Shown: piece by piece, positions 1 through 18,544 of the stretch
Layout: the number at the start of each line of letters is the position of its first letter
Numbering within the stretch: the first letter of the stretch is position 1
Assembly (NCBI GenBank): GCA_023957275.1
Contig: JAMLHF010000046.1
Span: 1 to 33,712 of the forward strand
Length of the DNA: 33,712 nucleotides
Reading direction: 5' to 3'
Origin: Lentimicrobium sp.
GTDB taxonomy: Bacteria; Bacteroidota; Bacteroidia; Bacteroidales; Lentimicrobiaceae
Translations under genes and position numbers: made by a program
Notes under the pieces: model-generated
What the model was told of the DNA's origin: nothing
Seen by the model: the letters and a program-made list of their open reading frames with translations, nothing else
Database searches by the model: none

Positions 1-95
1 TCATCCGCCACCATTTCCGGAATTGAGATCCTTAAAGCAAAGTAAGATGATGTAAAGCAAACCAAGGGATGATTAATCAGTAAACCTGAAAAAGT

Positions 96-2033
96 ATGCA
101 AGACATATCCCGCATCATCGCTTCCTGCCTGCTGCTGGCCCTTCCCTGCTTTTCGGGAGGCCAGCCCGCACGGCAAAATCTGCAGTCAACTCCGGGAAAA
201 AACAAAGTTGCTTCCATCGACACCCTGATCGCGCGCAGTGGGCGGATGGTTGAGGAAAATCCGGACACGGCATTCGTAATGGCCGGCAAAGCGCTGGAAA
301 TGGCGACGGGAATCAATGACCTGCAACGGCTCTCGCTGGCAGCAAGATGGATGGCTGAGGCCTGCTACTACAGAAACGATTACCTTAAAGCCATTGATTT
401 CTACCTGCAATCAGCCATGTATAGTTATAAAATTGACCGGGACTCATCCGGCTTTATGGCTGAAAGGCTCACCGATGCAGCTTTTTGCTACCAGGAGCTG
501 GGCATCTACGACAAGGCACTGGAACTGAATTTTGCTTCTTTAAAAATACAGCAAAAACTTGAAAATACACTAGAGATAAGCAATAACCTTTGCAATATCG
601 GCACCAACTATTTTTTCAGGGCGCAATACGATAAGGCGGTAGATTACTTTAACAGAACCCTTTCCATAGACAGAAAAAGCGGAGACTCTGCCGCCATTGC
701 CATTTCGCTGAATAACCTGGGCATGGTTTACAGCCGGTGGGGTAAACATCAGCGTGCACTGGAGTTCTATACCGAAGCGCTGAAACTCACCTCCGAGGAA
801 TCAAAAAAGTCAATAAAACTGAGCAATATCGGAATGGCCTGGTATTATCTGAAAGATTATGAAAAAGCGCTTCAGTACCTTAATCAGGCGCTTGAAATAG
901 ATATGAAATACAAACAACCCATACGTGCGGGAGTCAGGAAAAATGAAATCGGCAGCGTACTGGCTGCGATGGGGCAATATGCTGAGGCTATCCGCTTGCA
1001 CAAGGAAGCGCTGGCCGTTTTCAGGTCAGCCGGCATCCTGGAATCCCAGATCATTACCCTGGCAGATATGGGTGACTTATACCGGAAAACAGGCAACCTC
1101 CTGGCAGCGGAAACCTGTTACAAGGAAAGCGCCTCGATTGCATCGCGCAACCAGTCGTTACACCACCTGAGCCGCAGTTACAAAAGCCTTTTTGAGCTGG
1201 CGAAAGAACAGGGAAACAGCGACCTTGCATTAAATTACTACCTGGATTACTCCCGGGTAAAAGACTCCATTTTCACAAACGAAACGAATGACCTCATCTC
1301 CCGCTACGAGATTATGTATGAAACCGAAAAACATGAAAATGAAAACCAACTGCTGTTAAGGGACAATGAGATCAAGGCAAGAAGGCAGAAAATGTTGCTG
1401 ATTTTTACCGCAGGACTATTGCTGCTGCTGATCATGGCCCTGAGTCTTTTCAGGATAAGGTCGAAATACCTTAATCAACAACAGCTGATCCTGCAACAGG
1501 ACAATTATCTGGCAAATCTTGAGATTGCCCGGAAGGATGCAGCGAATCAGGCGCTGGAGGAGAGGATATTCGCCGAACAGCAGATAAACAGGCTGGAGCG
1601 GGAGAAACACCTGGCTGAAATTGAAGTAAAAAACAATGAGCTGGCCAACTCGCTGTTGAATATTGTCAGGAAAAATGAAATTATGTATGAAATCCGGGAA
1701 AGGATCCGGACATCCGGTAACGGTGATGCCTTAAATGAACTGGTCCGGTTTATCAATTCAAATACGGACACCGATCACAACTGGAAAAAGTTCAGGCTGG
1801 AATTTGAGCAGGTACATTCAGGTTTTTTCGACCGGCTTAAGGAAAACTATCCTGATCTTACCGAGCACGACACCCGCCTGGCAGCCTGTCTGCGCATCAA
1901 CCTGAGCTCCAGGGAAATTGCCGGCATGATGAATGTATCCCTCGAAACCGCGCATAAAAACAGGCAGCGGCTGCGAAAAAAAATGAACCTTTCTCCCGGA
2001 AGTGACCTGGCATCAGAACTGAGAAAGATCTGA
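96..2033 (+). CDS. Membrane-anchored TPR sensor / LuxR-type HTH transcriptional regulator (cassette 1)
   Basis: Predicted one-component regulator of 645 residues. Residues 1-22 form a signal-peptide-like hydrophobic stretch. Residues ~45-390 are TPR-like helical repeats (for example NNLGMVYSRWGKHQRALEFY near 206). Residues ~433-453 form one membrane helix and ~455-540 a charged coiled coil. Residues ~586-632 are a LuxR/GerE-like helix-turn-helix (LSSREIAGMMNVSLETAHKN). The layout implies a TPR sensor outside the cytoplasmic membrane and a DNA-binding domain inside, so DNA binding while membrane-tethered; this is inferred, not shown. It is co-linear throughout with the regulator at 9123. The next gene starts 113 bp downstream behind its own promoter with a twin direct repeat, the likely target. 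ATG 96 is chosen because it begins the signal peptide. The ligand is unknown. Confidence 0.9.
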   Translation: MQDISRIIASCLLLALPCFSGGQPARQNLQSTPGKNKVASIDTLIARSGRMVEENPDTAFVMAGKALEMATGINDLQRLSLAARWMAEACYYRNDYLKAIDFYLQSAMYSYKIDRDSSGFMAERLTDAAFCYQELGIYDKALELNFASLKIQQKLENTLEISNNLCNIGTNYFFRAQYDKAVDYFNRTLSIDRKSGDSAAIAISLNNLGMVYSRWGKHQRALEFYTEALKLTSEESKKSIKLSNIGMAWYYLKDYEKALQYLNQALEIDMKYKQPIRAGVRKNEIGSVLAAMGQYAEAIRLHKEALAVFRSAGILESQIITLADMGDLYRKTGNLLAAETCYKESASIASRNQSLHHLSRSYKSLFELAKEQGNSDLALNYYLDYSRVKDSIFTNETNDLISRYEIMYETEKHENENQLLLRDNEIKARRQKMLLIFTAGLLLLLIMALSLFRIRSKYLNQQQLILQQDNYLANLEIARKDAANQALEERIFAEQQINRLEREKHLAEIEVKNNELANSLLNIVRKNEIMYEIRERIRTSGNGDALNELVRFINSNTDTDHNWKKFRLEFEQVHSGFFDRLKENYPDLTEHDTRLAACLRINLSSREIAGMMNVSLETAHKNRQRLRKKMNLSPGSDLASELRKI

Positions 2034-2066
2034 ACAAAGATTCCCGCTGCAGGAAATATTCATTTC

Positions 2067-2126
2067 TGTCCCCCTCTTTGTCCCTCCTGAAAATTTGCAG
2101 GACCCCGGCCTGGCAGCTTAAATTTG
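2067..2126 (+). promoter_or_regulatory. Promoter with twin direct-repeat operator, cassette 1
   Basis: Two half-sites, TGTCCCCCT (2067-2075) and TGTCCCTCC (2079-2087), lie 12 bp apart. They are followed by a -33-like AAATTTG ending at 2097 and a Bacteroidota -7 box TAAATTTG at 2119-2126. The same order and near-identical spacing recur at 11101-11160 and 11611-11669, each time before an acylphosphatase-like gene. The twin sites lie just upstream of -33, where an activator would bind. Activation by the upstream TPR/LuxR regulator is inference. Confidence 0.7.
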
Positions 2127-2146
2127 TGTATCCGGCACATTCAGCT

Positions 2147-2428
2147 ATGAATACCTGCAACATGATTACGTTTCACCGGGCCACCTATGATGACGGCTTC
2201 GGTTTCTCATGTATGCAGGCTGCCTATAAGCTGGGCATCCGCGGGAGAATGGACTACAGCCCCCAGCAGGGAGTTACTATCCTGGCCGAAGGGAAGGAAG
2301 AGAGCCTTTCGGCTTTTATCGACTGGATCAACCAGCATGCCGGCCTTATCAACCACTTCAACAATCAGCAGTTAAACCGCCAGCCTTTCAACTACAAGGA
2401 ATTCGACATCTACCGGCACACCGCTTAG
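2147..2428 (+). CDS. Small acylphosphatase-like protein, degenerate active site (cassette 1)
   Basis: A 93-residue protein without signal peptide, so probably cytoplasmic. The pattern GFGF...A..LGIRG...(~15 residues)..AEG....L..FI.WI...FDIY follows the acylphosphatase fold (GVGFR...A..LGL.GWV.N....V...G......F). The catalytic Arg of GFR is Ser here and the Asn of the WVRN stretch is not kept, so acylphosphatase activity is doubtful and a binding or regulatory role is more likely. ATG 2147 is preferred over the longer frame from TTG 2078, because 2078 lies inside the operator. It also gives exactly 20 residues up to GFGF and 20-21 bp from the -7 box, matching the paralogue at 11689. A giant secreted protein gene follows after 53 bp. 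Confidence 0.7.
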   Translation: MNTCNMITFHRATYDDGFGFSCMQAAYKLGIRGRMDYSPQQGVTILAEGKEESLSAFIDWINQHAGLINHFNNQQLNRQPFNYKEFDIYRHTA

Positions 2429-2481
2429 TATTTGATTATCATTGATTTATACAATTCTGCTTTAATAAAAATACTGAAATC

Positions 2482-5400
2482 ATGAAAACACTGACCCGCC
2501 TAAGTATGGTGATGGCCCTGACGCTGATCACATTTTTATGCTCCGGACAAACCGCTGAGCAGGCACCTGAGAAACCGGTTCCGCCAACTTTTGGCAGTCT
2601 GGATTACTGGCAGGAGAAGATTCAGGACAGAGATATCAACTTCTTTGAACTTAAAAATGAGTTTCATGACTACTGGAAAGATAAAACCCCGGTAAAGGGT
2701 TCCGGATACAAGCAGATAAGCAGGTGGCTGACGCATAAGGAGGCCTATGCCAATCCGGATGGCACACTGCGGTTGCCGGAAGACGATCTCCAACAGGCTT
2801 TGGAACTAATGCAGCAAACGAATGCAATGACGATTACCGGAAATTGGTCTTACGCGGGTCCTTTTCAGCCAATCTATTTTGTAGGTGAAACAACCAGTGC
2901 CACCTCAGCAATGGGACGCGTAACCACAATCGGATTTAATCCTCATGATAACAACACAATTTATGTTGGAGCACCCCTGGGAGGGCTGTGGAAATCTACA
3001 AACTATGGCGCAACCTGGTACAATATGAATACAGATGTCATCACCTCATTGGGTGTATCGGCCGTAGCCGTGCACCCGACAGACCCCAATACTATTTTTA
3101 TAGGCACCGGAGACAGGGATAGTGAGAATACCCTTGGCAAGGGGATTTACAAATCAACAGACGGTGGCCTCACCTGGAACGCCAAGCCAATATCAACAAG
3201 ACATGATAAAATAGTTCATAAGATATATTTCAACCCTTCCGATCCAAACATTATGGCCATTGCCTCCAACTATGGAGTTTTTTATTCTGTGGATGGCGGG
3301 GAAACCTGGGAAAAAAGACTTACAGCCTACATTATTGATATGGAGCAAAAACCGGGAGAACCATTAACACTTTATGCCGTTAGTAAAACAACTTTTTATA
3401 AATCAACAGATTTCGGGTACAACTGGGATCCTCAGATGACAGTTCCGACCCACCGCATGGCAATAGGAGTCACGGCAGCAAACCCCGGGAAAGTGCTGCT
3501 ATTCACCACCAGGGATTCAAAGTTTTACAGGGTTTATCGTTCATATGATTCGGGTGTAACATTTGATACGATTTTTTCAACCGGAACGTCGCCGGGTGAA
3601 GGGCAGGGAGGTTACAACCTGGATGTAGTCATTGACCCCAACAATGAAAATATCGTTTATGCAGGCATGATTAACTTCTACAAATCAACGGACGGTGGTG
3701 TAACTTTTGTAAACCAGGAACCGGTTTATGCCGATGATCAGCACATCTTTGAGTTCCATCCTCTTACCCACCGGCTTTATATCGGAAATGATTCAGGCAT
3801 CTGGTACACAGACAATGGAACAGATTACTACTATTCAAGCAACGGGCTGAATATCACTTCAAGCTACCGCATTGATGTTTCGGCACAAAATCCAAACCGT
3901 ATTATCTCAGGGAATCAGGATGCAGCTACTTTTATTACCCTTAACAGCACTACCCATAAAGTTTGTGGAGGGGATGGCATGACCTGCCGTTTTGATTATA
4001 CAGATGAGAATTATATCTATACAAGCAGCCAAAATGGAAATGTAAGAAGAGCTATAAATGGAGGCGTTATTGATTCCCTGTATAGAACCATTGCTTCAAA
4101 TGGCGTTAATGGCATCACCCAAAACGGGAACTGGCAAACTGCATACGCAATCAGCTATTTTAATCCCAACATGATGTTTTACGGGGCCCACGATGTTTAT
4201 TGGAGTAACAACATCAAGACAGCCAATCCTGACAATGTGACTTTCTTTCAGATATCCGACAACATATCAGGTACCGATAATAGCACTACCATTGAGTATA
4301 TGAAACAATCCAGGGCGCAGGAAAGTCTTCTTTACATTGCTTACAACAACGGAAGGATGTTCCGGACGAGTAACGCACTTGACTACTCTCCCGTCTGGGT
4401 GGAATTAACGCAACCCAATAACATGGGTGGTGTAAGATTTGAAACGCATCCGACCAACCCGAACATTGTCTATATTGTAAAAGGCATCAATGTTTACCGT
4501 TCCAGCAACAGGGGCAACAGCTGGCAGGACATTACAGGTAACCTGCCCGAACTTGGCATGTTGTCCATTGCCTATATGAACGGCTCACCGGAAGGATTGT
4601 ATGTAGGAACTACCGCCGGGGTATATTATAAGGATACGACCATGACAGACTGGGTGCCCTTTAAAACCGGCCTTCCGTTGACCCAGGTAAGAGATATGGT
4701 TATCAATTATTCAACCACGCCGGCTCAGCTTTTTGCAGGAACTTTCGGCAGGGGCATCTGGAAAACAACGGTGTTACCCTCCTATGTACCCGATATTTAC
4801 TGCGGTACCGAAAATACCACCACCATCAACGGAACCTACGTGAATTCCTACAATCAGTACCATACCAGCCAATCGATGGTTACCATTGACCAGTTCAGTT
4901 ATGGATACTACCTTTCGGAAAATAATGTTATTTCAACCAACGACAATTTAGTAATTCAAACCGAAGTTTCCAACATTGCTCCGGGGATGAATCACCTGGC
5001 CCAGCTTGCCACCGATGTGGCTGCTGCGTTGCCGGAGCTTGCCCCGGGTACTTATTACCTGGGATTGCTGATCGACAACCTGGAAGAGGTAGACGAAACC
5101 AATGAAACGAACAATGAATGGGTAGCTTCCACCCAGGTAGTGATTCCGGCTATTCCAGCCGCACCGGTTAATGTGCAGGCCAGCGACGGCGATTATCCCG
5201 ACAAGGTGACCATAACCTGGGAAAACAATACCGGTGAACCGCTGTATTTTGCCGTTTTCAGGGCAGAGTCATTATTCGACCTGGCCCCTGATCAGATCAG
5301 CCCGGCCTGGACCACTTCACTGGCCTATGATGACTATTCGGCAGTGCCCGGTCAAACCTATTATTACCGGGTAAAAGCCTCCCGCTATCCGGAAGGCATC

Positions 5401-5907
5401 AGGGCTTCAGAATACAGCAGTTACAATATCGGTCATACTGCACTGGTAACACCGGCAAATGTGGAGGCCAGCGACGGCTCCTTCAGCGATCGCATAGTTA
5501 TTACCTGGACACCGGTAGTCGGGGCAACCCACTACAAGATTTACAGAAGCCTTACCCCTGTGGCAACCGAACAAAATGTCATCACCGGACTTACCTGGGT
5601 AGAACTCGACTCCAGCTATACCGATTACGGCCCTGCTTACGGGAACACCTATTACTACTGGGTGAGGGCCGCCATGAGTCAATTCGGGTCATATGCCACC
5701 GGCTTCAGCGCAGCCAACACCGGATATCTGGGATTTGTTACCGCTCCGACCGCAACGGCCAGCGACGGAACATACACCGACAGGGTGGAAGTTACCTGGA
5801 ATACCGTACCCGGGGCAACCCACTACCGGGTTTACCGGGGGACATATTCTCATCCGATCTTATCCGGATCCGGTCAGCGGCTGGCAAACTGCCACCTCAT
5901 TCAGTGA
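2482..5907 (+). CDS. Giant secreted sortilin/BNR-propeller protein, N-terminal part (gene continues to 8893 through frameshifts)
   Basis: 1141 residues are readable before the first frameshift. Residues 1-22 are a signal peptide (ALTLITFLCSG/Q). Residues ~100-770 are a sortilin/VPS10-like beta-propeller with Asp-box-type turns (STDGGLTWN, SVDGGETWEK, SNRGNSWQD). Residues ~775-885 are CARDB-like. Fn3-like domains begin near 891, 988 and 1087 (each with an ASDG.(Y/F)...V..TW core). It is co-linear with the intact 2125-residue paralogue at 12015, which has two further Fn3-like domains, a second CARDB-like domain, a beta-helix and a C-terminal module. The last ~20 residues before the stop at 5905 are out-of-frame translation. 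Likely role: large surface or secreted binding protein or hydrolase-like factor. No catalytic residues can be assigned and the substrate is unknown. Confidence 0.85.
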   Translation: MKTLTRLSMVMALTLITFLCSGQTAEQAPEKPVPPTFGSLDYWQEKIQDRDINFFELKNEFHDYWKDKTPVKGSGYKQISRWLTHKEAYANPDGTLRLPEDDLQQALELMQQTNAMTITGNWSYAGPFQPIYFVGETTSATSAMGRVTTIGFNPHDNNTIYVGAPLGGLWKSTNYGATWYNMNTDVITSLGVSAVAVHPTDPNTIFIGTGDRDSENTLGKGIYKSTDGGLTWNAKPISTRHDKIVHKIYFNPSDPNIMAIASNYGVFYSVDGGETWEKRLTAYIIDMEQKPGEPLTLYAVSKTTFYKSTDFGYNWDPQMTVPTHRMAIGVTAANPGKVLLFTTRDSKFYRVYRSYDSGVTFDTIFSTGTSPGEGQGGYNLDVVIDPNNENIVYAGMINFYKSTDGGVTFVNQEPVYADDQHIFEFHPLTHRLYIGNDSGIWYTDNGTDYYYSSNGLNITSSYRIDVSAQNPNRIISGNQDAATFITLNSTTHKVCGGDGMTCRFDYTDENYIYTSSQNGNVRRAINGGVIDSLYRTIASNGVNGITQNGNWQTAYAISYFNPNMMFYGAHDVYWSNNIKTANPDNVTFFQISDNISGTDNSTTIEYMKQSRAQESLLYIAYNNGRMFRTSNALDYSPVWVELTQPNNMGGVRFETHPTNPNIVYIVKGINVYRSSNRGNSWQDITGNLPELGMLSIAYMNGSPEGLYVGTTAGVYYKDTTMTDWVPFKTGLPLTQVRDMVINYSTTPAQLFAGTFGRGIWKTTVLPSYVPDIYCGTENTTTINGTYVNSYNQYHTSQSMVTIDQFSYGYYLSENNVISTNDNLVIQTEVSNIAPGMNHLAQLATDVAAALPELAPGTYYLGLLIDNLEEVDETNETNNEWVASTQVVIPAIPAAPVNVQASDGDYPDKVTITWENNTGEPLYFAVFRAESLFDLAPDQISPAWTTSLAYDDYSAVPGQTYYYRVKASRYPEGIRASEYSSYNIGHTALVTPANVEASDGSFSDRIVITWTPVVGATHYKIYRSLTPVATEQNVITGLTWVELDSSYTDYGPAYGNTYYYWVRAAMSQFGSYATGFSAANTGYLGFVTAPTATASDGTYTDRVEVTWNTVPGATHYRVYRGTYSHPILSGSGQRLANCHLIQ

Positions 5908-6591
5908 TCTTACGGCAGTAACTGCGGTAAAATATTATTACTGGATCAGGGCTTCACAGGATGCAACCGGGACTGTAACCACAGGCTACGGTGCAAAGAC
6001 GCGGGTTACCGAAACTTTATTCCGCCTCCTGTTACTGCTACCGACGGTACATCGACCTATTACACTTCCGTATCCTGGACCGCGGTCAGCGGAGCAACCT
6101 ATTATAAAGTTTACAGACGAAACAGTACCACTGACCCTTATGCCCCTGTATCAGGCTGGGTCACCCGTACCAGCCGCAGCGACGCTACAGGTGTTCCGGG
6201 CGCCCTGTATCAATACTCCATCAGGGTGGCCAGCGACACCAACTACATCGTGAGTAATTATCATACGATGCCGGCTACCGCCGGATCGCCGCACCTGTTG
6301 TCAGCACCACCATCGGTGCGCAGGCCGACAGGGTCACGATCGCATGGCAACCGGCCGAAGGAGCAACTTATTACCGGGTACAACGCTCCCCGGTTGAAAA
6401 CCCGGTGTACACCACCCTGGCCAACTACAGCAACACGCTCAACAATTATTACACAGACCTTACGGCCGTGCCCAATCAGCGGTATTACTACAGGGTAACC
6501 GGGGCCGTAAATTCATCGGGATTAAGGGCCGGAAACAATGGGATCGTTATTGGAATGGCGGGGGCATGCAGCAACCTGGCAGAGGAAGATT
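5837..6591 (+). pseudogene. Frameshifted middle of the giant gene (Fn3-like domains 3-5 and start of second CARDB-like domain)
   Basis: Reading against the paralogue at 12015 restores one continuous frame with four single-base changes. One G too many lies in the GGGGG run at 5837-5841; without it the text reads VYRGHILIRSYPDPVSGW, the same length as the paralogue. One G is missing at ~6002-6005 (restores GAKTRGYRNFIPPP). One G is missing at ~6273-6274 (restores PGYRRIAAP). One T is missing at ~6590-6591 (restores EEDFNHACNSLHG). All four are in homopolymer runs and no in-frame stop remains after correction. This could be a young pseudogene, but the clustering in homopolymers looks as much like sequencing error. 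Several short open frames here (5693-6253, 6226-6498, 6405-6641) are fragments of this one gene. Confidence 0.85.
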
Positions 6592-8893
6592 CAACCATGC
6601 GTGCAATAGCCTGCACGGCACCACCATTGATATCGGGATGAGGCTGGCCAACCAGGGATATTATAACCTTGCCGATTCCGTATCCATTACTGTTTATCTC
6701 GAGAGTTCCCCTCCGGATGGCACGCCCGAAGTTACCCTTGGAACTGCAAAAATCCCACCCCTTGAGGTGGATGAGTTCTATGATGCAACCTTCTCTGCCG
6801 ATGCCGGAAATATCCCGGATTTTGACTTCACTTACGGCACCTGGCACATCGCCCTTGGCCTCAATTGTGATAACGGAAACGGAAACTGCGACAACACCAC
6901 TGCCGACGACTATGTAATTTGGTATAATCCGGTGGTGAACCACACGGACGCGCTGCACGGCATTTATACAATCGGCAGTGCTGAATGCGATTTTGTAAGT
7001 CCGGCCGCAGCCCTGGATGCACTACTTACCCGCGGCATGTCTGACCCCGTGACCTTCCACCTGATGCCGGAAGAATTTATCGGACAACTGTATTTTACCC
7101 ACATCAACGGATCGGGGCCGGAAAAAGGAATCCTGTTTACCCGCCATCCGGACCATGCCGATACGGCAACCATTGTAGCGGTTCCGACAAAAACCAGCAA
7201 TTACACCATCCGGCTCGAGAACTGCACCAACCTGACCTTCGATGGCCTGCACCTGAAAACGCTGGGCGCTTCGGATTTCGAGGATACGTATGGCAGGGTA
7301 ATTCATCTGAGTGGCGAATCCAATCAATTGTCATTCATTAATAACGATATAGAAGGCTTTACCGATGACGCACACTACGGAATGGAGAACGGCGTGATTT
7401 ACGCCAGCTATTTTACAGGCAGCAACCTGCTGTTTGAAAATAACCGGATCCGCAACGGAACAACCGGCATTGATATACAAGGTGCAAACTTAATTACCGG
7501 ACCGGTCAGCAATCTGCTGATCAGGGACAATGAAATAACCGGATACCGGAAAATCGGAGTTGACCTGAGATTTATTAACCACCTTGAAATATGCGGAAAT
7601 TACCTTAGAAACGGCTTCCTGAGTTCCCAATGGTCAAACGGGATGTATATTTCAGATGTAGTAAACGGCGCTGATATCAGTCGTAACCGGATTCAACTTG
7701 AAGGAAATGCTGAAGTAAAGCATGCATTATCGTTTTATGACTGCAATATGGAGGCATCGCAACCCATACTGATTTCTAACAATTTCATCACCATGGAATC
7801 AGGCAGTTTCCTGAATTACGGGGTAAGTCTTGGGTCATCAACCCATCTCCTTTTTGCGCACAACAGCATCAATATTTACGGAACCCCGGGCACCTTTTCC
7901 TCAGCGCTGACTTTCCAGGGGGAAGATACGCCTCAGGAATACACCAACACGGTATTGAATAACAATCTGGTCAATCAGGCGGGCGGGACCTGCGTTGCAT
8001 ACAACAACTTCCTGGAAAACCCCGGATTTATCACGGAGATGAATTATAACAATCTGGTTACTGACGGACCGGTCATGTTTACCGTTGATCAGGCACCTTA
8101 TCCAGATATGGCCTCCTGGAGGTCGCTCACAGGGCTTGATATGAATTCCGTTTCTCTAGACCCCGGCTTTGCAAGCAATACCGACCTGCATTGCACCAAC
8201 CCGGCTTTCGACAACCTGGGCACGCCTGTCCCTGAAGTTTCAACCGACATTGATGGTGATCCCCGTTCACCGGCCACCCCGGATATAGGAGCAGATGAAT
8301 TTAACAATGAACCAGCTGAAACAACGCTCACGCTGGAGGTTTTCCTGGAAGGGCTTTACAACGGGGCGAATTCCATGCGTCAGGCATTTGATGAGAACGG
8401 GCCGCATTTCGGCCCCGGCGTTGCCGATCAGATTGTGATTGAACTTCACGATGCTTCCGGCTACGGAAATATTGCTTATACCTCACCACCGGTGAATCTG
8501 GGCACAAACGGTCAGGCCGTTATCACTGTTCCGGGCACATTCAGCGGTTCTTATTACATCACCATTCGCCACCGGAACAGCCTGGCCACCACCACTGCTG
8601 CACCTGTTTCGTTCAGCGCCAGCAATGTTGCGCTTAACCTTGATCATCCTTCAAAAGCCTTTGGCGGCAATCTGCTGATGATGATTGACGGAAAGTATGT
8701 GATTTACGGCGGCGATGTGAATCAGGACGGCTCGGTAGACACCGCCGATATGACTCCGGTTGACAATGACGCTTCCGCTTTTGTTACCGGCTACCTGGCA
8801 ACCGATGTGAATGGCGATGGCACCGTAGATACAGGAGATATGACCATTATCGACAACAATGCCGCGGCCTTTGTGAGCAGCATCACTCCCTGA
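6566..8893 (+). CDS. Giant secreted protein, C-terminal part: beta-helix plus dockerin-like C-terminal module
   Basis: Continuation of the gene begun at 2482. The homologous frame starts near 6590; ATG 6566 is probably not a real start, since no signal peptide or ribosome site is seen. In order: the rest of a CARDB-like domain (to ~6950), a linker with TIGSAECDF at ~6970, a right-handed parallel beta-helix (~7200-8150, repeats such as LLFENNRIRNGTTGIDIQG), a short IDGDPRSPATPDIGADE stretch typical of beta-helix ends, and a ~190-residue C-terminal module from ~8325. The module ends with two calcium-loop-like segments (DVNQDGSVDTAD and DVNGDGTVDTGD) and a final SSITP. The same module ends three more proteins in this window. 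No type IX YPNP sorting domain is present. Confidence 0.8.
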   Translation: MQQPGRGRFNHACNSLHGTTIDIGMRLANQGYYNLADSVSITVYLESSPPDGTPEVTLGTAKIPPLEVDEFYDATFSADAGNIPDFDFTYGTWHIALGLNCDNGNGNCDNTTADDYVIWYNPVVNHTDALHGIYTIGSAECDFVSPAAALDALLTRGMSDPVTFHLMPEEFIGQLYFTHINGSGPEKGILFTRHPDHADTATIVAVPTKTSNYTIRLENCTNLTFDGLHLKTLGASDFEDTYGRVIHLSGESNQLSFINNDIEGFTDDAHYGMENGVIYASYFTGSNLLFENNRIRNGTTGIDIQGANLITGPVSNLLIRDNEITGYRKIGVDLRFINHLEICGNYLRNGFLSSQWSNGMYISDVVNGADISRNRIQLEGNAEVKHALSFYDCNMEASQPILISNNFITMESGSFLNYGVSLGSSTHLLFAHNSINIYGTPGTFSSALTFQGEDTPQEYTNTVLNNNLVNQAGGTCVAYNNFLENPGFITEMNYNNLVTDGPVMFTVDQAPYPDMASWRSLTGLDMNSVSLDPGFASNTDLHCTNPAFDNLGTPVPEVSTDIDGDPRSPATPDIGADEFNNEPAETTLTLEVFLEGLYNGANSMRQAFDENGPHFGPGVADQIVIELHDASGYGNIAYTSPPVNLGTNGQAVITVPGTFSGSYYITIRHRNSLATTTAAPVSFSASNVALNLDHPSKAFGGNLLMMIDGKYVIYGGDVNQDGSVDTADMTPVDNDASAFVTGYLATDVNGDGTVDTGDMTIIDNNAAAFVSSITP
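8336..8893 (+). repeat. C-terminal module DNA, near-identical to 17835-18392
   Basis: The last 558 bp of the two giant genes align without any gap (constant offset of 9499 bp). Long stretches differ only at scattered, mostly silent positions, for example around 8636-8800 compared with 18135-18299. The rest of the two genes is much more diverged, which suggests recent gene conversion or module exchange. Confidence 0.8.
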
Positions 8894-8924
8894 ACGGGCC
8901 TTTTGAAATCCGGATTATCCTCTG

Positions 8925-8952
8925 AGACCTCTCCTGAAAAAGAGGTCTTTTT
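8925..8952 (+). terminator. Rho-independent terminator after cassette 1
   Basis: A perfect 8-bp stem AGACCTCT / AGAGGTCT with loop CCTGAAAA is followed by TTTTT at 8948-8952. It lies 32 bp after the stop codon of the giant gene and separates cassette 1 from cassette 2. Confidence 0.85.
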
Positions 8953-9038
8953 CCTGTACGACATTTTCATCCGGATTAACATATGCCAATACATAAGCAG
9001 CGTTTAAATTTATTCAGGTATTTACAATGAAAATTTAC

Positions 9039-9045
9039 TAATTTG
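9039..9045 (+). promoter_or_regulatory. Possible -7 box of the second TPR/LuxR regulator
   Basis: TAATTTG resembles a shortened Bacteroidota -7 box (TAnnTTTG) in the AT-rich gap between the terminator at 8925 and the regulator start at 9123. No clear -33 box is seen and the twin TGTC half-sites are absent here, so the regulator gene is probably not controlled like its neighbours. Confidence 0.25.
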
Positions 9046-9122
9046 CATAATATAATCAGAAACCAGGATTACCTGATAGTATTTAACGGATAAATAACTG
9101 ATAAACAGTAAAACAAAGTGCA

Positions 9123-11072
9123 ATGACACACAGGCTTTCTGTATTTATATTGATTTTGATATTTGCATTTCCCCTTATGAGTTCATACGGACAGGAAATT
9201 ATCCGGTATCCTGCTGTCAGGATCAAAGGATTGGGAAAAGCCGCAACCCTGGATTCCCTGCTGAAAAGCAGCGCCCGGCTGGCCGAATCCCACCCCGACT
9301 CGGCACTCAGGCTTGCCCATGGCGCTTATGGACTGGCCAAAAATGCGAACGACAACAAATCTTATGCAGCAGCGGCCAGAACCATTGCCGACGCGTGGTA
9401 TTACAAAAACGACTTTGTAAATGCCATTACCTTTTACAATGAATCGGCAGATGCGGCCCTGCTGTCCGGCAGCGGCAGCGACACCGGAAGCTATTATGCT
9501 GACCGGATCAGTGATGTGGCCTATTGTTATATGCAGCTGGGCATTTATGAAAAAGCCATAGAACTTGAAAACACCGCGCTTCGTATAAACCGCAGGCTGG
9601 GCAGAATGAGTGAAACAGGCTCGAGCCTCAACAATATAGGAAATAACTACTTTTATCTGGGGCATTACGACAAAGCCATACAATACCTGACAGAGGCCCA
9701 CGCGCTTGATCTTCAAACAGGTGACTCATCTGATATTTCCGTGTCGCTCAACAATATCGGAATGGTATACAGCCGTTGGGGAAAACACAGGCAGGCCCTG
9801 TCATTTTATGAGGACGCCCTGGGTTATACCACTTCCGAAATCCGCAAAGCGATCAGGTTAAGCAACATTGGCATGGAGTGGTATCATTTAGGGGATTACA
9901 GGAAAGCGCTTGAATACCTCAATCAGGCCCTTGAGTCAGACATCAGGAACAAACAGACCATAAAAGTCGGCATCCGTAAAAATGAAATCAGCACGGTGCT
10001 TTCAGCCATGGGGGAATACGAAAAAGCCATACTTCTCAATGAGGAAGCACTGCTGATTTTCAGGAGTACCGGCATCAGGGAATCCCAGATTATAACCCTG
10101 GCCGATATGGGCGACTTATACCTGAAAATGGACCAGCTTACCAAGGCTGAGCTTTGTTTTCTTGAAGGGCTTGAACTGGCGCGGGTAACCGGTTCACTGC
10201 ACAATCAGGCGCGGATTTATAAAAGTCTTTATGAGCTTTCGGAACGAAAGGGTGATTATCAAAAAGCACTGGACTATTTCAGAAATTATTCCATAGTGAA
10301 TGATTCCGTTTTCAATGAAATAAAACACAGGCAACTGGCCAACTTTGAAATACTTTACGAAACCGGGCAAAAAGAAAAGGAAAACCAGGTACTGCTGCGC
10401 GACAATGAGCTGAAAGAAAAAAGGCAACGGTTGTCCGTTGCAATCATCGCGGGATTGGGGATCATCCTGATGCTGATTTTCTTTCTTTACAGGATAAAAG
10501 CTGTCAGCCTGAAGCAAAGTAAAAAACTGCTTGCGCAGGAGCAGGAGCTGGCGCATCTGGAAATTGAAAAGAAAACAGCCGAGAACAAACTGCTTGAGGA
10601 CAGAATTTTTGCCGAGCAACAGATTAACCGCCTGGAGCGGGAAAAATACCAGTCGGAAATAGAATTTAAAAATGCCGAATTAGCGGGTACCACCTTAAGC
10701 CTTGTAAATAAAAATGAGATTCTGGGTGAGATCCGCAACAGACTTATGGATAATCACAAACCGGAAACCATTCCCGGGGTTATCCGGTTTATTAATGCGA
10801 ATACCGATATAGATCTGGACTGGAACAAATTCAGGCTGACTTATGAGGAGGTGCATCCGGGATTTTTCGAACGTATCCAGAAGCAATATCCGCAGCTTAC
10901 CGATCATGATGTTCGTTTATCGGCTTACCTGAGGATTAACCTGAGTTCACGTGAAATCGCAGGACTTATGAATGTTTCGCTTGACGCTACCAACAAGGGA
11001 AGGCAGCGGTTAAGAAAAAAGCTTGATCTGGCGCCTGAATCAGACCTCTGCGAGTTCCTTAAATCGGTGTAA
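9123..11072 (+). CDS. Membrane-anchored TPR sensor / LuxR-type HTH transcriptional regulator (cassette 2)
   Basis: 649 residues, co-linear with the regulator at 96. Residues 1-24 are a signal peptide ending ...SSYGQ. Residues ~50-395 are TPR-like repeats. Residues ~437-457 form a membrane helix and ~460-540 a coiled coil with the shared FAEQQINRLEREK segment. Residues ~590-636 are a LuxR-type helix-turn-helix (LSSREIAGLMNVSLDATNKG). The two proteins differ at the start of the predicted recognition helix (SLETAHKN in the first, SLDATNKG here), which could set different operator preferences. Two acylphosphatase-like genes, each with its own twin-site promoter, and a giant secreted-protein gene follow. 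The upstream terminator at 8925 makes this an independent unit. Signal and mode of activation are unknown. Confidence 0.9.
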   Translation: MTHRLSVFILILIFAFPLMSSYGQEIIRYPAVRIKGLGKAATLDSLLKSSARLAESHPDSALRLAHGAYGLAKNANDNKSYAAAARTIADAWYYKNDFVNAITFYNESADAALLSGSGSDTGSYYADRISDVAYCYMQLGIYEKAIELENTALRINRRLGRMSETGSSLNNIGNNYFYLGHYDKAIQYLTEAHALDLQTGDSSDISVSLNNIGMVYSRWGKHRQALSFYEDALGYTTSEIRKAIRLSNIGMEWYHLGDYRKALEYLNQALESDIRNKQTIKVGIRKNEISTVLSAMGEYEKAILLNEEALLIFRSTGIRESQIITLADMGDLYLKMDQLTKAELCFLEGLELARVTGSLHNQARIYKSLYELSERKGDYQKALDYFRNYSIVNDSVFNEIKHRQLANFEILYETGQKEKENQVLLRDNELKEKRQRLSVAIIAGLGIILMLIFFLYRIKAVSLKQSKKLLAQEQELAHLEIEKKTAENKLLEDRIFAEQQINRLEREKYQSEIEFKNAELAGTTLSLVNKNEILGEIRNRLMDNHKPETIPGVIRFINANTDIDLDWNKFRLTYEEVHPGFFERIQKQYPQLTDHDVRLSAYLRINLSSREIAGLMNVSLDATNKGRQRLRKKLDLAPESDLCEFLKSV

Positions 11073-11100
11073 TTGCAGGAATCATTGCGAATCTCCGAAT

Positions 11101-11160
11101 CGTCCCACCATTTGTCTTACCGCAAAATTTGGAAGCAGGCAGCGTACCTTCATAACTTTG
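11101..11160 (+). promoter_or_regulatory. Promoter with twin direct-repeat operator, cassette 2, first small gene
   Basis: Half-sites CGTCCCACC (11101-11109) and TGTCTTACC (11113-11121) lie 12 bp apart. They are followed by a -33-like AAATTTG ending at 11131 and a -7 box TAACTTTG at 11153-11160. The distance from half-site to -7 box is identical to that at 2067-2126. The operator starts ~30 bp after the regulator's stop codon. Confidence 0.7.
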
Positions 11161-11245
11161 TATCAGTTTCGGGTAACCTCCAGTAAAACATGGTATACAA
11201 ATACATTCTTAACATCAGATTCATTTTTATACAGTAAACAAAGCG

Positions 11246-11593
11246 ATGAGACAGGCAATAAGGATTCTGATACATTTCAAAAATGAAGCGCCCGGTTTCC
11301 GCTATTACGCGATGCGAAAAGGCAGGGAATGCGGTATAAAAGGAATTATTCCACTGATTACCAGGAATACCATAGTAATCCATGCCGAAGGTACGCCAGC
11401 ATCGCTGGATGCCTATCTCGACATTCTGAAAACCGGGACGCCCTTTTGCAACATTGAGCATTTCAGCACGTTCAATGCCCAGGTCTTTCATTATAACACA
11501 CTGGAAATCACAAATGAACAAAGTGCTGCCGCGGACCTTTATCCATCCGGAAGAAAGCCGCGCATCCTCCGTCTGGGGATTTTCGGGCTTTGA
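11246..11593 (+). CDS. Small acylphosphatase-like protein, divergent copy (cassette 2)
   Basis: 115 residues without signal peptide. Seventeen residues precede the GF pair, as in the two sister proteins. The GFRYYAMRKGRECGIKG stretch matches the acylphosphatase GFR...A..LGL.G region and keeps the Arg that the other two have lost. AEGTPASLDAYLDIL then matches the second half of the fold. The Asn of the usual catalytic pair is not evident. After the fold there is a ~25-residue tail, rich in Arg near its end, that the sisters lack. It is the most diverged of the three. Its own twin-site promoter precedes it with a ~80-base leader, and a second such promoter follows 17 bp after its stop, so it may be expressed separately from the giant gene. 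Function unknown; a small binding or regulatory protein is a guess. Confidence 0.6.
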   Translation: MRQAIRILIHFKNEAPGFRYYAMRKGRECGIKGIIPLITRNTIVIHAEGTPASLDAYLDILKTGTPFCNIEHFSTFNAQVFHYNTLEITNEQSAAADLYPSGRKPRILRLGIFGL

Positions 11594-11610
11594 TTTCATC
11601 GTTTCTGTAC

Positions 11611-11669
11611 TGTCCTACCAGTTGTCTTACCTTAAAATTTGGAGTGCCCTGCCCTACCGCTTAAATTTG
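11611..11669 (+). promoter_or_regulatory. Promoter with twin direct-repeat operator, cassette 2, second small gene and giant
   Basis: Half-sites TGTCCTACC (11611-11619) and TGTCTTACC (11623-11631) lie 12 bp apart, followed by AAATTTG ending at 11641 and -7 box TAAATTTG at 11662-11669. Two further related sequences, TGCCCTACC (11650-11658) and TGTCCTAAG (11668-11676), overlap the core promoter. It probably drives 11689-18392 as one transcript. Confidence 0.7.
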
Positions 11670-11688
11670 TCCTAAGCAGTGCAACTCC

Positions 11689-11982
11689 ATGATGATCAGT
11701 TCAAAAATCCGCTTCAGCAAATCCGATACCACCGACGGTTTCGGATTCAACTGCATGAAAACGGCTTACAGTCTCCGTATTAAGGGTCGGCTTGATTATT
11801 ATCCCGGAGGAGAAAATCAGATCATCGCGGAAGGCGAAGAAAACAGCTTGCAGGATTTTATCGCATGGATCAAAAACAACATAGAAGACACCAATCAGTT
11901 TACCTGTCATAACTCATTAATCTGCAGCGGAATTTTTAAAGAATTTGACATATTCCTGCATACTGCCATACAGCCATTCTGA
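11689..11982 (+). CDS. Small acylphosphatase-like protein, degenerate active site (cassette 2)
   Basis: 97 residues, no signal peptide. It is the closer sister of the protein at 2147: both have 20 residues up to and including DGFGF, then C.M..AY.L.I.GR.DY, AEG...SL..FI.WI and a KEFDI end. The acylphosphatase Arg (GFR) is replaced by Asn and the later Asn is missing, so the family's hydrolysis of acyl phosphates is unlikely. ATG 11689 lies 20 bp from the -7 box and is followed by a second ATG; the first is chosen for equal length with the sister. The giant gene starts 32 bp after its stop, so the two are probably cotranscribed. Its linkage to a TPR/LuxR regulator and a secreted giant in both cassettes suggests a regulatory or binding role. 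Confidence 0.7.
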   Translation: MMISSKIRFSKSDTTDGFGFNCMKTAYSLRIKGRLDYYPGGENQIIAEGEENSLQDFIAWIKNNIEDTNQFTCHNSLICSGIFKEFDIFLHTAIQPF

Positions 11983-12014
11983 ATCGCAAATTAATATTAT
12001 CAACTCCTGTAAAT

Positions 12015-15000
12015 ATGAAATCCATCATCAGAATTTTCATTGCCTGGTCAATGATAGCCTGCTTTTCCCCTGGCATAGCCCAGGAAACAAACAACGCTGA
12101 AATGAAACCGCCGGTACTTCAGACGGGCAGCCTGGAATACTGGTTTGATAAAATGAATGCCGCTGATTTCAGCTATAAAAATTTCAAAACAGAATTTGAC
12201 AATTACTGGAGAAACCGGGAAAAAGTCAAAGGATCGGGCTACAAACAGGTTGCCCGCTGGCTGATTCATCAGGAGGCTTATCTTAATCCTGACGGCAGCC
12301 TGCGACTGCCGGCAGAGGACCTTGAAAATGCTATGCAGTTCAACAGCCAGTATGCCAATCAGACCATAACCGGAACATGGACATATGGCGGGCCCGACAA
12401 CACCATCGCCGGCCGCACCACTGCCATTGCTTTCAGCCCGCATAACCCTCAGAAAGTATATGTAGGCGCTCCTTTGGGCGGCCTTTGGGCTTCCGATAAC
12501 GGAGGAGTAAGTTATTACAGCATGAATACTGACAATATCTCTGCACTTGGGGTTTCGGCCATTGCCGTGCATCCTGACGATCCGAATATCATTTTTATTG
12601 GTACCGGTGATCGGGACGGATGGAAAACAAGAGGCATAGGCATCTACAAATCCATAAACGGAGGGGCGACCTGGATTCCGAAACCGATAGATTCTGAAAG
12701 CAATAAAGTAGTAAATAAAATTTTTATTTACCCGGGCAATCCCGATATTATAGGCGCATTTACCAGCCACGGTTACTATTTGTCTTATAACGGTGGTGAT
12801 TCATGGTCCAGAAAACTGGTCGCATGCCTGCGTGACGCAGAACAAAAGCCGGGCAGTCCTTCTGTTCTTTATGCAGCCAGCAGCACAAGTTATTATAAAT
12901 CTTCTGATTTCGGAGCAACATGGCGACTGGTGCTACCTGAAATTGGTTCCCGCATTGCATTGGGGGTTACAGCCGCCAACCCGGAAAAAGTAGTAATGAT
13001 TACTTCGAGAAATGAAGGATTTCATCATTTTTATGTATCCAATAACTCGGGCGAGTCTTTTACGCTGGTTCAATCAACGGGAATTGTGAATGAAAGGCAG
13101 GGCTCGTATAATCTGGATGTTGTCGTAGATCCTTTGAACGAAAACATTATATATGCCGGTTTGGTTAACTTCTATAAATCAGTTAACGGAGGCCTTACCT
13201 GGGTTGAGCAGGCGCCTGTTTATGCCGACGACCAGCATACTTTTGAATTTCATCCGGTTAGCCACCGGTTGTTTATCGGCAACGATGACGGCGTATGGTA
13301 CACCGACAACGGACAGGATTACGTAAGATCTGTCAGCGGGCTGAATATTACGGAAATATACCGTATGGATGTGGCAGCCGAAAACCCGGACCATGTAATC
13401 ATTGGTAACCAGGATGGCTCAACCCGTGTAAGCGCTGGTGGCGCCTATTACAACTCAATCGGAGGAGACGGGATGACCTGCAAATTTGACACGACCGATG
13501 CGAATTTTGTTTACGGAAGCAGACAGTACGGATACATTGCGCGATCAACCAACGGCGGATTGGGCAACGGCTCATTTCATAGCATTGCCGGCTTAAATAT
13601 CAATGGCATCAATCAGGAAGGAAATTTTCAAACCGCTTTTCTCATAGACTATTTTAATCCAAACGTCATGTTTGCCGGAATGAAAGATTTATGGGGCAGC
13701 AACAACATCAAAACACCCGACCCGGAGAATATATACTGGCATAAGCTGTCCGACGGAGATTTCGGACCTGAATCAACCATTGAATTTATTGAACAATCAA
13801 GGGCTAATCCACAGATTGTTTATGTATTTAACGATCAGCAGCAGATTTTCAGAACAGACAACGCGTATGACGCTGATCCTTCATGGACACAACTTGAGAA
13901 TCCCACCCAGAGCAAGGGAGTCAGGTTTGAGTCACATCCTTCTGATCAGAATATCGTTTACATGGTTTGCGGGAAGAAAGTATATAAGTCAGTAGATCGC
14001 GGAATAGAATGGGATAGTATTCCCGGCAACCTGCCTGATCTCGGCATGATGTCAATAGCCTTTATGAATGGAAGTCCGGAGGGCCTCTATGTGGGCACAA
14101 CTGCCGGTGTTTACTACAAGGATTCAACCATGAGCGACTGGGTGCCTTTCAAAACAGGGCTTCCGTTAACACAGGTCCGCGATCTTGTTATCAACTATTC
14201 AACCAACCCGCCACAGTTATATGCCGCTTCTTTTGGCAGGGGATTCTGGAAAACAACGGTACTGCCTGCCTATAAACCTGACCTGGTAAAAGGATCAGGC
14301 AATGCACAGGTAAGCGGAACAACGGTCAGTTGTAATAACGGCATCCTGAATTCAGAATCAATGGTAACTGTAAATGGCTGCAGCGTTGGCTATTACATTT
14401 CGCCCGATGATGCCTTCAACACTTCTGACTATATGTTAGGGACGGCCGATGCACCGGCAATGGGCCCCGGGATTCTGGTTCAGGTGCAGCTGGATCCTGT
14501 TGATGTCGCACTATTAGAGCCGGAAATACCACCTGGAAGTTATTATGTAGGTATGCTGGTTGATCACCTCGATGAAATCGATGAATCCAACGAAAATAAC
14601 AATCAGTGGGTGTCTCCGAATATGGTTACCATTCCGGCCAATCCATCCGCGCCTGAGAATATCCAGGCCTCCGACGGAACTCATTTTGACAGGGTATCAC
14701 TCACATGGGAAAATAACACCGGTGAGCCACTGTACTATGCCATATTCCGGCATACCAGCAACATCACGCTCTTTCCCCAGCAGATCAGTCCTGAAACCTG
14801 GCAGACAGCAACCTCTTTCGAGGATTATACAGGTACCAGCGGGCAGACCTATTACTATTGGGTGAAGGCATCGCGTTATCCTGACGGCAGACGGGCATCG
14901 GCACTGAGTGCCTACAATACTGGCTGGCGTAAACTCGAGCCACCGGCAAATGTACAAGCCAGCGACGGGCTTTATCCTGACAAAATTCAAATCACCTGGG

Positions 15001-18000
15001 AGCCGGCGCCTGAGGCCGATTATTACCAGATATACAGAGAACCGGAAGGAGGCGTTCTCGAATGCATTTCAGGCCCCGGATGGCTGCCGTTTTATGGTAA
15101 CTACACTTTTGATGATACCGGGACCGGTGAGGGGACAATCTACACCTACTATGTAAAAGCGGCGCTGAATGTTGCCGGAAACAGGGCCTCAGAACTCAGT
15201 GACGGGGATGAAGGGTGGAAAGCATTCACCACAGCCCCTGCTGCCAATGCTACAGATGGTATCCATACCGATGGTATATCAATTACCTGGAATACAGTGA
15301 ACGGAGCCACCCACTATGCTGTTTTCAGGAGTCCGCTTTCTTATCCCTTTAACTCTTTGAACATTTCAGGATGGCAAACCGGTAATTCCTACTTTGACCC
15401 CAGCGTTACTGCCGGCACCCTCTATAATTATTGGGTGAAAGCGGCCAACAACCCCGAGGGTTTACAATCAACAGGTTATGGGCCCAAAGACAACGGGTTT
15501 CGCAATTTTGTGCCGCCCACATCGGTGGCTGCCTCTGACGGCACTTATACTGACCACACGCTCATCAGCTGGACAAATCCCGCTGGCTGTAACTATAGCA
15601 AGGTGTATCGCAGCAACAGTGAATCAACAGCAGAAAGTATTCCCATTAGTAACTGGATAATGAGTAATAGCTATTCTGACACTACCAGTATTCCGGGAGA
15701 ACTGTACTATTATTTTGTCAGAGCTGCCGGAAACGACACACTCGTAATTATTACTGATTTTTCCGCCTATAACCGGGGTTACCGCAGGATTGAGGCACCC
15801 ACGGTTGCCGCCAGCCATGGCATTTATGCTGATAAAGTACTTGTAACCTGGAACGAAGTGCCCGGGGCATCACACTACAGAATCAGCAGAAGCCGGGTTG
15901 AAAATCCGTCAGTTGTTACGAACCTGACAACCTGGAGCAGTTCAATGAATTTCGCTTTTGAGGATCACACAGCTGTACAGGGTCAATATTACAACTACTA
16001 TGTATCCGGAGCGACCAACAGTTCAGGTTTGCGCCCCGGAATTGCCGGATCAGCGGTTGGTCTGGCTGACGGTTGTGGCAATTATGTTGATCTCCCTGAT
16101 TACCGGACGATAATTTTCCATGGCACAACACTCGACCTTTCCGGCCGCATCCTGAATGAAGGCCCTTATGCACGGACCTCTGCCGGACAGATAGCCTTTG
16201 AACTTGAACTGGAAACTCCCGACGGAACGCCGGAATGCTTCCTCGGGACAATAGATATCCCACCCCTGGATGCCGGTGGAACTTATAATTACAATTTCAC
16301 GATTGATCTCTCCACTGTGGAAGAATGGGGATTGTCATACGGGCAGACCTGGTATGTCGTTTGCGAAACTTCATGGGACAATATACACTGCGATTCAGAT
16401 CCCTTAGACGACTATAATGTTTGGGACGATCTCCCGTTTTATTACAGTGATGCACTTTATGGCGTATACACCATCGGGCCTGAGTCCTCCGATTTTGAAA
16501 ACCTGACAGCAGCTATTGATGCACTGCATGCCCGGGGCATTTCCGATACTGTGGTTTTTCATCTGAAGCCAGTCACATTCTACGAAAAGATTGTGATTAA
16601 CCAAATCAACGGATCTTTTCCCTGGCGTATCATTACCTTCCGAACTGATCCGGCCTATTCTGCGCGGGCCACAATTATCGGAACCCCTTCACCGGATGAA
16701 AATTATACTTTAAAAATTAATCAAAGTTCCAATCTGCGTTTCGAAAATTTGCACCTGAGTACGGCAGGATATGGTGATTTCGCATCAACCTACGGAAGGG
16801 TTATTGAAATCAGCAATGGATGCAGCAATATTTCAATCCATAACAACCTGATTTCTGCCAATGCCGATTATTCATACTTCAATGGTGATAATGTTGCCAT
16901 TCATGCACTGAATGCATCAATTAATAACCTCACCATCAGTAACAATCAAATCCTTTATGGTGAAACCTCCATTAAACTTACCGGAGGAAATCTGCCCGAG
17001 AACTATATTCAAAACCTGACCATTACCGGTAATCAATGCGAAGAGTTTCATGACAAAGCCATGATGCTCGAGAAAATTGATAACCTGAACCTGTCAAACA
17101 ATCTGGCTACCCGGGATACTGCATTATATTTTGAATTAACCGGTTTTTACCTGATTAATATACAGGGATGCCAGATAAAGTCGAATCAGATAAGGCTGAA
17201 TGGCAACAATGTCAATGTCCGGGGTTTAATGATGAGCAACATTTACAATGAAGCCTATGAACCTGGCATTATTTCGAACAATATCATTGCATTGGGCGGC
17301 CAGAACTCAAGACACTACGGATTGTATATGTATGATTTCAATCATTGCAAAATCTTACACAACAGCATCAATCTTTACGGAACATCTTCGTTGTTTTCAA
17401 CAGCATTGCTGTTCGACTGCCAAAGCACAGGAGATGCGCTGAACAATACTTTCCTGAACAATACGGTCAGCAATGGCCCGGGCGGGTATAACATCATCTA
17501 CAATGAAAACGCTTTGAACCGCAACCTATTCACTGACTGCGATTACAACAACCTGCACAATACCGGCTCCTGGCTTGGAATGCTTGCAAATAATGATATT
17601 GAATCCTTTTCTGAATGGAGCACGGCTACGGGATTCGATGTAAATTCTCACTCGGTCAACCCGGGTTTTGTTTCAGATACAGACCTGCATGCTTCAAGTC
17701 AGGTTCTTAACAATGCGGGTATCCCTTGTCCGGAAGTTCTCACAGATATTGATGGTGAAACCCGCTCCACCACTTCTCCGGATATAGGAGCAGATGAATA
17801 CACCCCTGAGCCTTCGGACAAGACACTTACAGTTGAGGTTTTTCTGGAAGGGCTTTACAACGGATCAAATACCATGCGGCAGGCATTTGATGAAAACGGG
17901 CCGCATTTCGGCCCCGGCATTGCCGATCAGATTGTGATTGAGCTTCACAATGCTTCGGGTTACGGAAATATTGCTTATACCTCACCGCCGGTGAATCTGG

Positions 18001-18392: not shown

Positions 18393-18420
18393 AAAACCAG
18401 GATTTCAATGATCAGACAAA

Positions 18421-18453
18421 AGTCCCCGGTTGCTTTAGCGGCAGCCGGGGACT
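18421..18453 (+). terminator. Strong hairpin after cassette 2, no U-tract
   Basis: AGTCCCCGGTTGC pairs with GCAGCCGGGGACT (13 pairs with one G-T wobble) around the loop TTTAGCG. It lies 28 bp after the stop of the giant gene. No T-run follows on either strand, so it may slow or process the transcript rather than be a classic intrinsic terminator. Confidence 0.5.
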
Positions 18454-18522
18454 CATTGATTCAGATCCGGGCTGCCATGATAAAAAATATAATAATGATG
18501 CGCAGAATCAGGCATTTATACG

Positions 18523-18530
18523 TATATTTG
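18523..18530 (+). promoter_or_regulatory. -7 box before the alpha/beta hydrolase gene
   Basis: TATATTTG fits the Bacteroidota -7 consensus TAnnTTTG exactly and ends 14 bp before the ATG at 18545. No clear -33 TTG is seen. The leader would be very short. Confidence 0.45.
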
Positions 18531-18544
18531 AGAAAAGTAGTCCC

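Follow-up and report, generated by a model that had tools for sequence, protein, structure and literature searches.

Regulators of the NarL/LuxR family use direct-repeat sites that lie upstream of the core promoter. To our knowledge, and this is our own view of the field, transcription control in Bacteroidota is thinly mapped beyond SusR-like regulators, hybrid two-component systems and extracytoplasmic function (ECF) sigma factors. These three are named as means of transcription control in the accessible part of a published account (PMC7366714), which also gives the consensus of Bacteroidota sigma-ABfr promoters as TAnnTTTG at -7 and TTTG at -33. Here we describe three operator-promoter sites in a window of 33,712 nucleotides (the whole stretch of DNA that was analysed; contig JAMLHF010000046.1, assembly GCA_023957275.1) from Lentimicrobium sp., a member of the Bacteroidales. 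We consider it likely that each site serves as operator and promoter for an operon under a membrane-anchored one-component activator encoded immediately upstream, which would activate a small non-catalytic acylphosphatase-like (APL) protein and a very large exported protein. LuxR-like direct-repeat activation is of a known type; what appears unusual is the membrane sensor built of tetratricopeptide repeats (TPR) and the frequent pseudo-enzyme companion. In the literature searched, mostly without subscription papers, no account was found of this operator, nor of DNA sites for proteins that combine TPR with a C-terminal helix-turn-helix (HTH) domain.

The features of the window are listed in Table 1. 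The original prediction had claimed three copies of one promoter, and all three are present as described and where it had placed them. In each copy the two half-sites are spaced at 12 bp and are followed by AAAATTTG and then by 24-25 bp to the TTTG of the -7 box. The half-site itself had been given as TGTC-YYACC, which is exact at site 3 and fits site 2 with one mismatch and site 1 with three. With up to three mismatches, the twin half-site pattern occurs four times in the window against 0.16 expected, a count reached by none of 100 shuffles; the fourth match (7038-7058) falls within a reading frame. A 31-base pattern derived from the three sites, again with up to three mismatches, matches them alone in the 4.4 Mb genome, and the reversed-pattern controls match nowhere. 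All three promoters have TAnnTTTG at -7 and a TTTG near -33 (at 2094, 11128 and 11638). As far as the accessible part of the promoter account goes, these boxes are shared with Bacteroidota sigma-ABfr promoters, and they are unremarkable on their own because they are standard elements of that class. What is added here is a TGTCC direct repeat with a period of 11 or 12 bp, set 10 bp from the -33 box; the new element is the repeat, not the promoter boxes. An RNA element is unsupported, since an Rfam scan of positions 1-20000 of the window gave no match.

Table 1. Regulator genes, operators, promoter boxes and downstream genes in the window
Feature	Coordinates	Strand	Description
REG1	96..2033	+	645 amino acids (aa); signal-like N-terminus, TPR repeats, one transmembrane segment, coiled coil, C-terminal HTH
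Operator 1	2067..2087	+	TGTCCCCCT (2067-2075), N3, TGTCCCTCC (2079-2087); direct repeat, 12-bp period; counterparts in genomes G001 and G006
Promoter 1, -33 box	2094..2097	+	TTTG, 10 bp past second TGTCC; AAATTTG ends at 2097
Promoter 1, -7 box	2119..2126	+	TAAATTTG
APL 1	2147..2428	+	93 aa; both catalytic residues absent; PF00708 26.0 bits, alignment, fold model
Large exported Vps10/BNR protein	2482..8893	+	dockerin-like end; probable operon member
REG2	9123..11072	+	649 aa; REG1 paralogue (49% identical), same architecture
Operator 2	11101..11121	+	CGTCCCACC (11101-11109), N3, TGTCTTACC (11113-11121)
Promoter 2, -33 box	11128..11131	+	TTTG; AAATTTG ends at 11131
Promoter 2, -7 box	11153..11160	+	TAACTTTG
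APL 2	11246..11593	+	115 aa; Arg position kept, Asn lost; C-terminal tail ends GIFGL; PF00708 33.7 bits
Operator 3	11611..11631	+	TGTCCTACC (11611-11619), N3, TGTCTTACC (11623-11631)
Promoter 3, -33 box	11638..11641	+	TTTG; AAATTTG ends at 11641
Promoter 3, -7 box	11662..11669	+	TAAATTTG
APL 3	11689..11982	+	97 aa; both catalytic residues absent; PF00708 21.2 bits, just below cut-off
Large exported protein	12015..18392	+	2125 aa; homologous to the protein from 2482-8893; probable operon member

Site 1 lies directly 3' of REG1 and site 2 directly 3' of its paralogue REG2, while site 3 follows the APL gene of site 2. REG1 is proposed as the regulator of site 1 and REG2 as that of sites 2 and 3. 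The TPR of REG1 are assigned from Pfam matches, and its transmembrane segment spans approximately residues 434-452. The C-terminal HTH of REG2, modelled from an alignment that included REG1, is predicted to adopt the four-helix GerE fold; the solved structures that match this model best by Z score are DosR (9.5), VpsT (8.9), LiaR (8.7) and VraR (8.4). It is in this predicted helical HTH that REG1 and REG2 resemble the NarL/LuxR (GerE) proteins DosR, LiaR/VraR and VpsT. Unlike those proteins they have no detected receiver or autoinducer domain (no receiver family of two-component response regulators is among their matches listed at E <= 1, which for REG1 are 25 of 26), and they carry instead a signal-like N-terminus, TPR and a single transmembrane segment. 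GerE matches at E <= 0.1 were obtained for 61 of 72 C-terminal pieces (best 7.8e-10), and Sigma70_r4_2 matches for 62; we call the regulators LuxR-like rather than members of GerE because they fall below the Pfam gathering score of that family. The nearest curated NCBIfam families are BT3442 (NF053779), over the C-terminal part, and FimS of Porphyromonas (NF053520), over the TPR part, with scores far below the respective cut-offs (48.0 and 54.8 against 940; 77.6 and 80.5 against 600). In the accessible part of one paper (PMC2954219), BT_3442 is described only as a TPR protein with several domains whose role is unknown. The proposal that a LuxR-type activator occupies a tandem repeat immediately upstream of -33 thus gains support, in that genes beside the sites encode regulators in which a domain of NarL/LuxR fold is predicted.

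The element is conserved within the genus. Nineteen genus genomes, including the one under study, hold nine sites in five genomes at up to three mismatches, with no matches in the controls, and all nine lie directly upstream of an APL gene. Proteins with such a C-terminal HTH are numerous, with 91 profile matches in these 19 genomes, propeller-type proteins included. Seven of these matches score above 300 bits and form the subfamily to which the regulators belong; the next scores 139.5, a gap that arises by construction because the profile was built from those seven members. The site follows all seven, including one (G008:C49) with a divergent -33 side that the three-mismatch scan missed. To count sites next to regulators we used a fixed rule: a TGTCC-type repeat with a period of 11 or 12 downstream of the regulator, and NTTG at a distance of exactly 10 bp beyond the second TGTCC. 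By this rule a site accompanies 8 of the 77 distinct genus regulators examined, namely the seven subfamily members and L086. L139, L145, L152 and L153, also from the genus, have TGTCC repeats that fall outside the rule. The last three make up a second TPR-HTH subfamily, characterized by an RKTRYRIRKK helix and a GTCCGCATTTT repeat approximately 30-35 bp past the stop codon.

Scans with the motif alone extend the element beyond the genus. A looser pattern, run over 393 order genomes with at most one mismatch, matches eight times in five of them, and four of these matches lie outside the genus. In G300 the regulator, site, APL gene and BNR protein stand in the same order as in the window; in G150 a site and an exported protein, but no APL gene, come after each of two regulators (30-32% identical to REG2); and in G188 the site precedes an APL gene with no adjacent regulator. 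When one genome from each of 84,980 species was scanned, 18 stretches matched, 14 of them labelled Bacteroidota. Nine of the 14 are directly after a TPR-HTH gene, three more precede an APL gene, one precedes a large protein where the contig ends and one is inside a gene; none of the four stretches without that label has a neighbour of the TPR-HTH or APL type. Nine of the 14 are loci already known, and three of the five new ones follow a TPR-HTH gene. L129 and L130 carry the labels of Flavobacteriales lineages, which speaks against restriction of the system to one order. With the half-site tails left free, a stricter pattern matched 16 times in the 393 order genomes, and its controls not at all; nine are directly after a TPR-HTH gene, and at seven of these nine an APL gene comes next (two weak, at E values of 1e-7 and 3e-4). 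Altogether, 6 of 15 new motif-only matches labelled or placed as Bacteroidota directly follow a TPR-HTH regulator. Among 335 genomes of the phylum there were the window and one other match, against one control match; neither a TPR-HTH nor an APL gene lies in the 3-kb locus of the extra match. The search of the genome and its relatives that the original prediction had called for therefore finds the motif not at background rate, and the same kinds of genes follow it in other families.

The same element emerges from a search that starts with the proteins. The order set consists of 39 distinct regulators of other families, chosen by score and length rather than at random among the matches listed; 15 of them, found by protein alone, have a site by the fixed rule. 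Sorted by helix residue, the site is present in 4/4 H, 7/7 Y, 2/6 N, 2/10 Q and 0/12 non-K regulators. In all, 30 of 161 distinct regulators have a site downstream, as counted by a geometry rule that, like the split by K-helix, was shaped on the same data it counts. The controls gave none upstream (112 regulators with at least 100 nucleotides upstream), none in reverse complements, none in reversed sequences and 2 in 3220 shuffles. A search blind to the sequence of the repeat recovered 25 of the 161, all TGTCC/TGTCA-like and all at K-helix regulators, and it found repeats of no further type next to these regulators; its controls gave 1 in 1610 shuffles, one in reverse complement, none upstream and none reversed. 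In 27 of 34 cases the distance from the second TGTC-x to NTTG is exactly 10 bp, in comparison with a TTG background of 2.1% of positions. One set of sites has a repeat period of 12 bp and others have 11, and the distance from the second TGTCC to NTTG is mostly exactly 10. A score matrix with a 12-bp period was dropped in favour of the geometry rule after relatives scored low on it, because their period is 11. Downstream of L087, a propeller-type regulator, TGATGTAG repeats with a period of 11 can be seen by eye; the blind search did not recover them.

From this arrangement we infer a mechanism that comprises sensing, binding and activation. The TPR part, probably periplasmic, would sense a signal or a partner, and the transmembrane segment would link it to a cytoplasmic HTH of predicted NarL/LuxR fold that would bind the two TGTCC half-sites. 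With the inner half-site 10 bp from -33 and the outer one 11 or 12 bp further up, the fixed 10-bp distance would place the protein to contact sigma region 4, as in class II activation, and so to switch on the pseudo-acylphosphatase and the very large exported protein. In this way some TPR-HTH proteins can be assigned an operator together with a promoter geometry, and their predicted targets are large exported proteins and dead acylphosphatases; part of their regulon therefore becomes readable from sequence. The operator also occurs where there is no APL gene, and where no regulator is adjacent. The adjacent TPR-HTH protein might instead bind the repeat and repress the operon: the genomic evidence for binding would be identical, and repressors too can be encoded beside their targets. 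The quality of the boxes does not decide between activation and repression, because all three window promoters have good -7 and -33 boxes. The repeat, however, lies wholly upstream of -33 at a mostly fixed 10-bp spacing, and class II activators usually sit just upstream of -33; repression is in our judgement unlikely.

Several results weigh against an activator encoded next to its site. On the protein side, Foldseek returned no match to the HTH model at E <= 0.001, and the Pfam GerE cut-off of 23.5 bits is reached neither by REG1 (13.0 bits) nor by REG2, which has no GerE match. In the looser-pattern scan one control matched, against the eight matches. The nine regulator-linked loci of the stricter scan were all previously known, and its six new matches have no TPR-HTH neighbour. 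A prior prediction, that a KxRQR helix goes with a TGTCC repeat, largely failed in the order set (2/9); a third of the nine has the repeat with NTTG off by one base, and for three of the other six the sequence downstream was just 152-285 bp long. The wider K-helix rule, by which 15/26 K and 0/12 non-K regulators of the order set have the site (one N row with 3 bp of downstream DNA is excluded from the 26), is post hoc, having been formed after the data were seen. A class-level set has the site in 0/4 K and 1/35 non-K regulators. Over all sets, 21 of 50 K-helix regulators are without a site, helix and operator track the same clades, and the tree yields only three supported independent contrasts.

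Part of this evidence would also suit a repeat bound by another regulator in trans, the neighbouring TPR-HTH gene being merely a fellow member of the module. Seven of the nine KxRQR regulators are without a site by the fixed rule. No TPR-HTH gene adjoins 7 of the 16 stricter-scan matches (one of these seven precedes an APL gene) or two further operators in G004:C118, and the latter two show the pattern that would be expected of a trans-acting regulon. Against this, the site is directly downstream of diverged regulators in different families of the order (the 15 of 39 found by protein alone), and regulators with a KSRNR helix carry TGTCATAGC and not TGTCC (3/3 with a site, from one clade); we hold binding by another regulator to be quite unlikely. 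That the three copies are mere unselected relics of a local duplication of promoter and gene is hardly credible: REG1 and REG2 are paralogous and the two modules homologous, but the proteins are just 49% identical, the DNA flanking the motif aligns poorly, the same geometry recurs in other families and the motif is elsewhere not at background rate, which supports the earlier claim that the surroundings have diverged while the motif looks selected.

The KSRNR-helix regulators L086, L243 and L249 have TGTCATAGC direct repeats in place of TGTCC at the same distance from -33; they belong to one clade and so represent one event, which makes this pairing a lead rather than proof. TGTCC is, apart from a few exceptions (L242), the half-site that accompanies helices with Q, H or Y. 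Within the genus, the HTH subtype MMNVSxETxHKNRQ pairs with TGTCCCCCT as first half-site and LMNVxLxATNKxRQ with YGTCCYACC, in few and related cases. K-helix and operator are associated (29/50 against 1/108; Fisher p 4e-17, with descent ignored), 3 of the 161 regulators being left out of this set for short downstream DNA. In several propeller-type rows the regular expression for the helix took the wrong stretch; these are non-K by eye and the counts are unchanged. A more ambitious proposal is an order-wide dedicated signalling system. Its membrane-anchored TPR-HTH activators would follow a code between helix and DNA, K-x-R-Q/H/Y pairing with TGTCC and K-S-R-N with TGTCATAGC, at a constant distance from -33; the pseudo-acylphosphatase, first in the operon, would be a feedback partner of the regulator and would meter expression of the giant exported protein. 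We regard this as rather doubtful.

As had been claimed, each site stands before an APL gene, the third of which encodes a protein just below the PF00708 cut-off of 22.5 bits. The acylphosphatase fold is also predicted by the APL model. Acylphosphatase enzymes have a catalytic Arg and a catalytic Asn. In an alignment of 20 operator-linked APLs the Asn is kept in none and the Arg in five, whereas ordinary acylphosphatases (PF00708) of the genus keep both residues (3/3). The Arg-keeping APLs of the window (11246-11593), L059 and L044 have a common tail (GIFGL, GLFGF and GFFGF, respectively). The idea that the motif is a general feature of APL genes was rejected; it is absent at the APL genes beside YyaL-like genes and at the ordinary acylphosphatases inspected. 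The motif-free APL genes L046, L053, L056 and L060 each follow a gene whose product resembles a thioredoxin-domain protein of the YyaL type.

The gene at 2482-8893 falls into three separate frames of 1141, 186 and 775 aa, while its relative in G001 is a single frame of 2138 aa; the split reflects either a broken gene or an assembly error. By eye, dockerin-like repeats are common to the C-terminal regions of the exported proteins at 8320-8893, 17820-18392 and 19800-20374. Of the first and third regions, which were scanned, Pfam Dockerin_1 matches the first and falls just below the cut-off in the third. Operator-like sites at L278, L288, L289, L290 and L291 have no TPR-HTH neighbour and lie upstream of exported- or lipoprotein-looking genes; they are possibly targets in trans. 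At L123, L130, L209, L256 and L259, the proteins that follow the operator open with a signal peptide and a VAINTDGS.PD.SAMLDVKS..GLLIPRM-like stretch, a recurring start of surface proteins.

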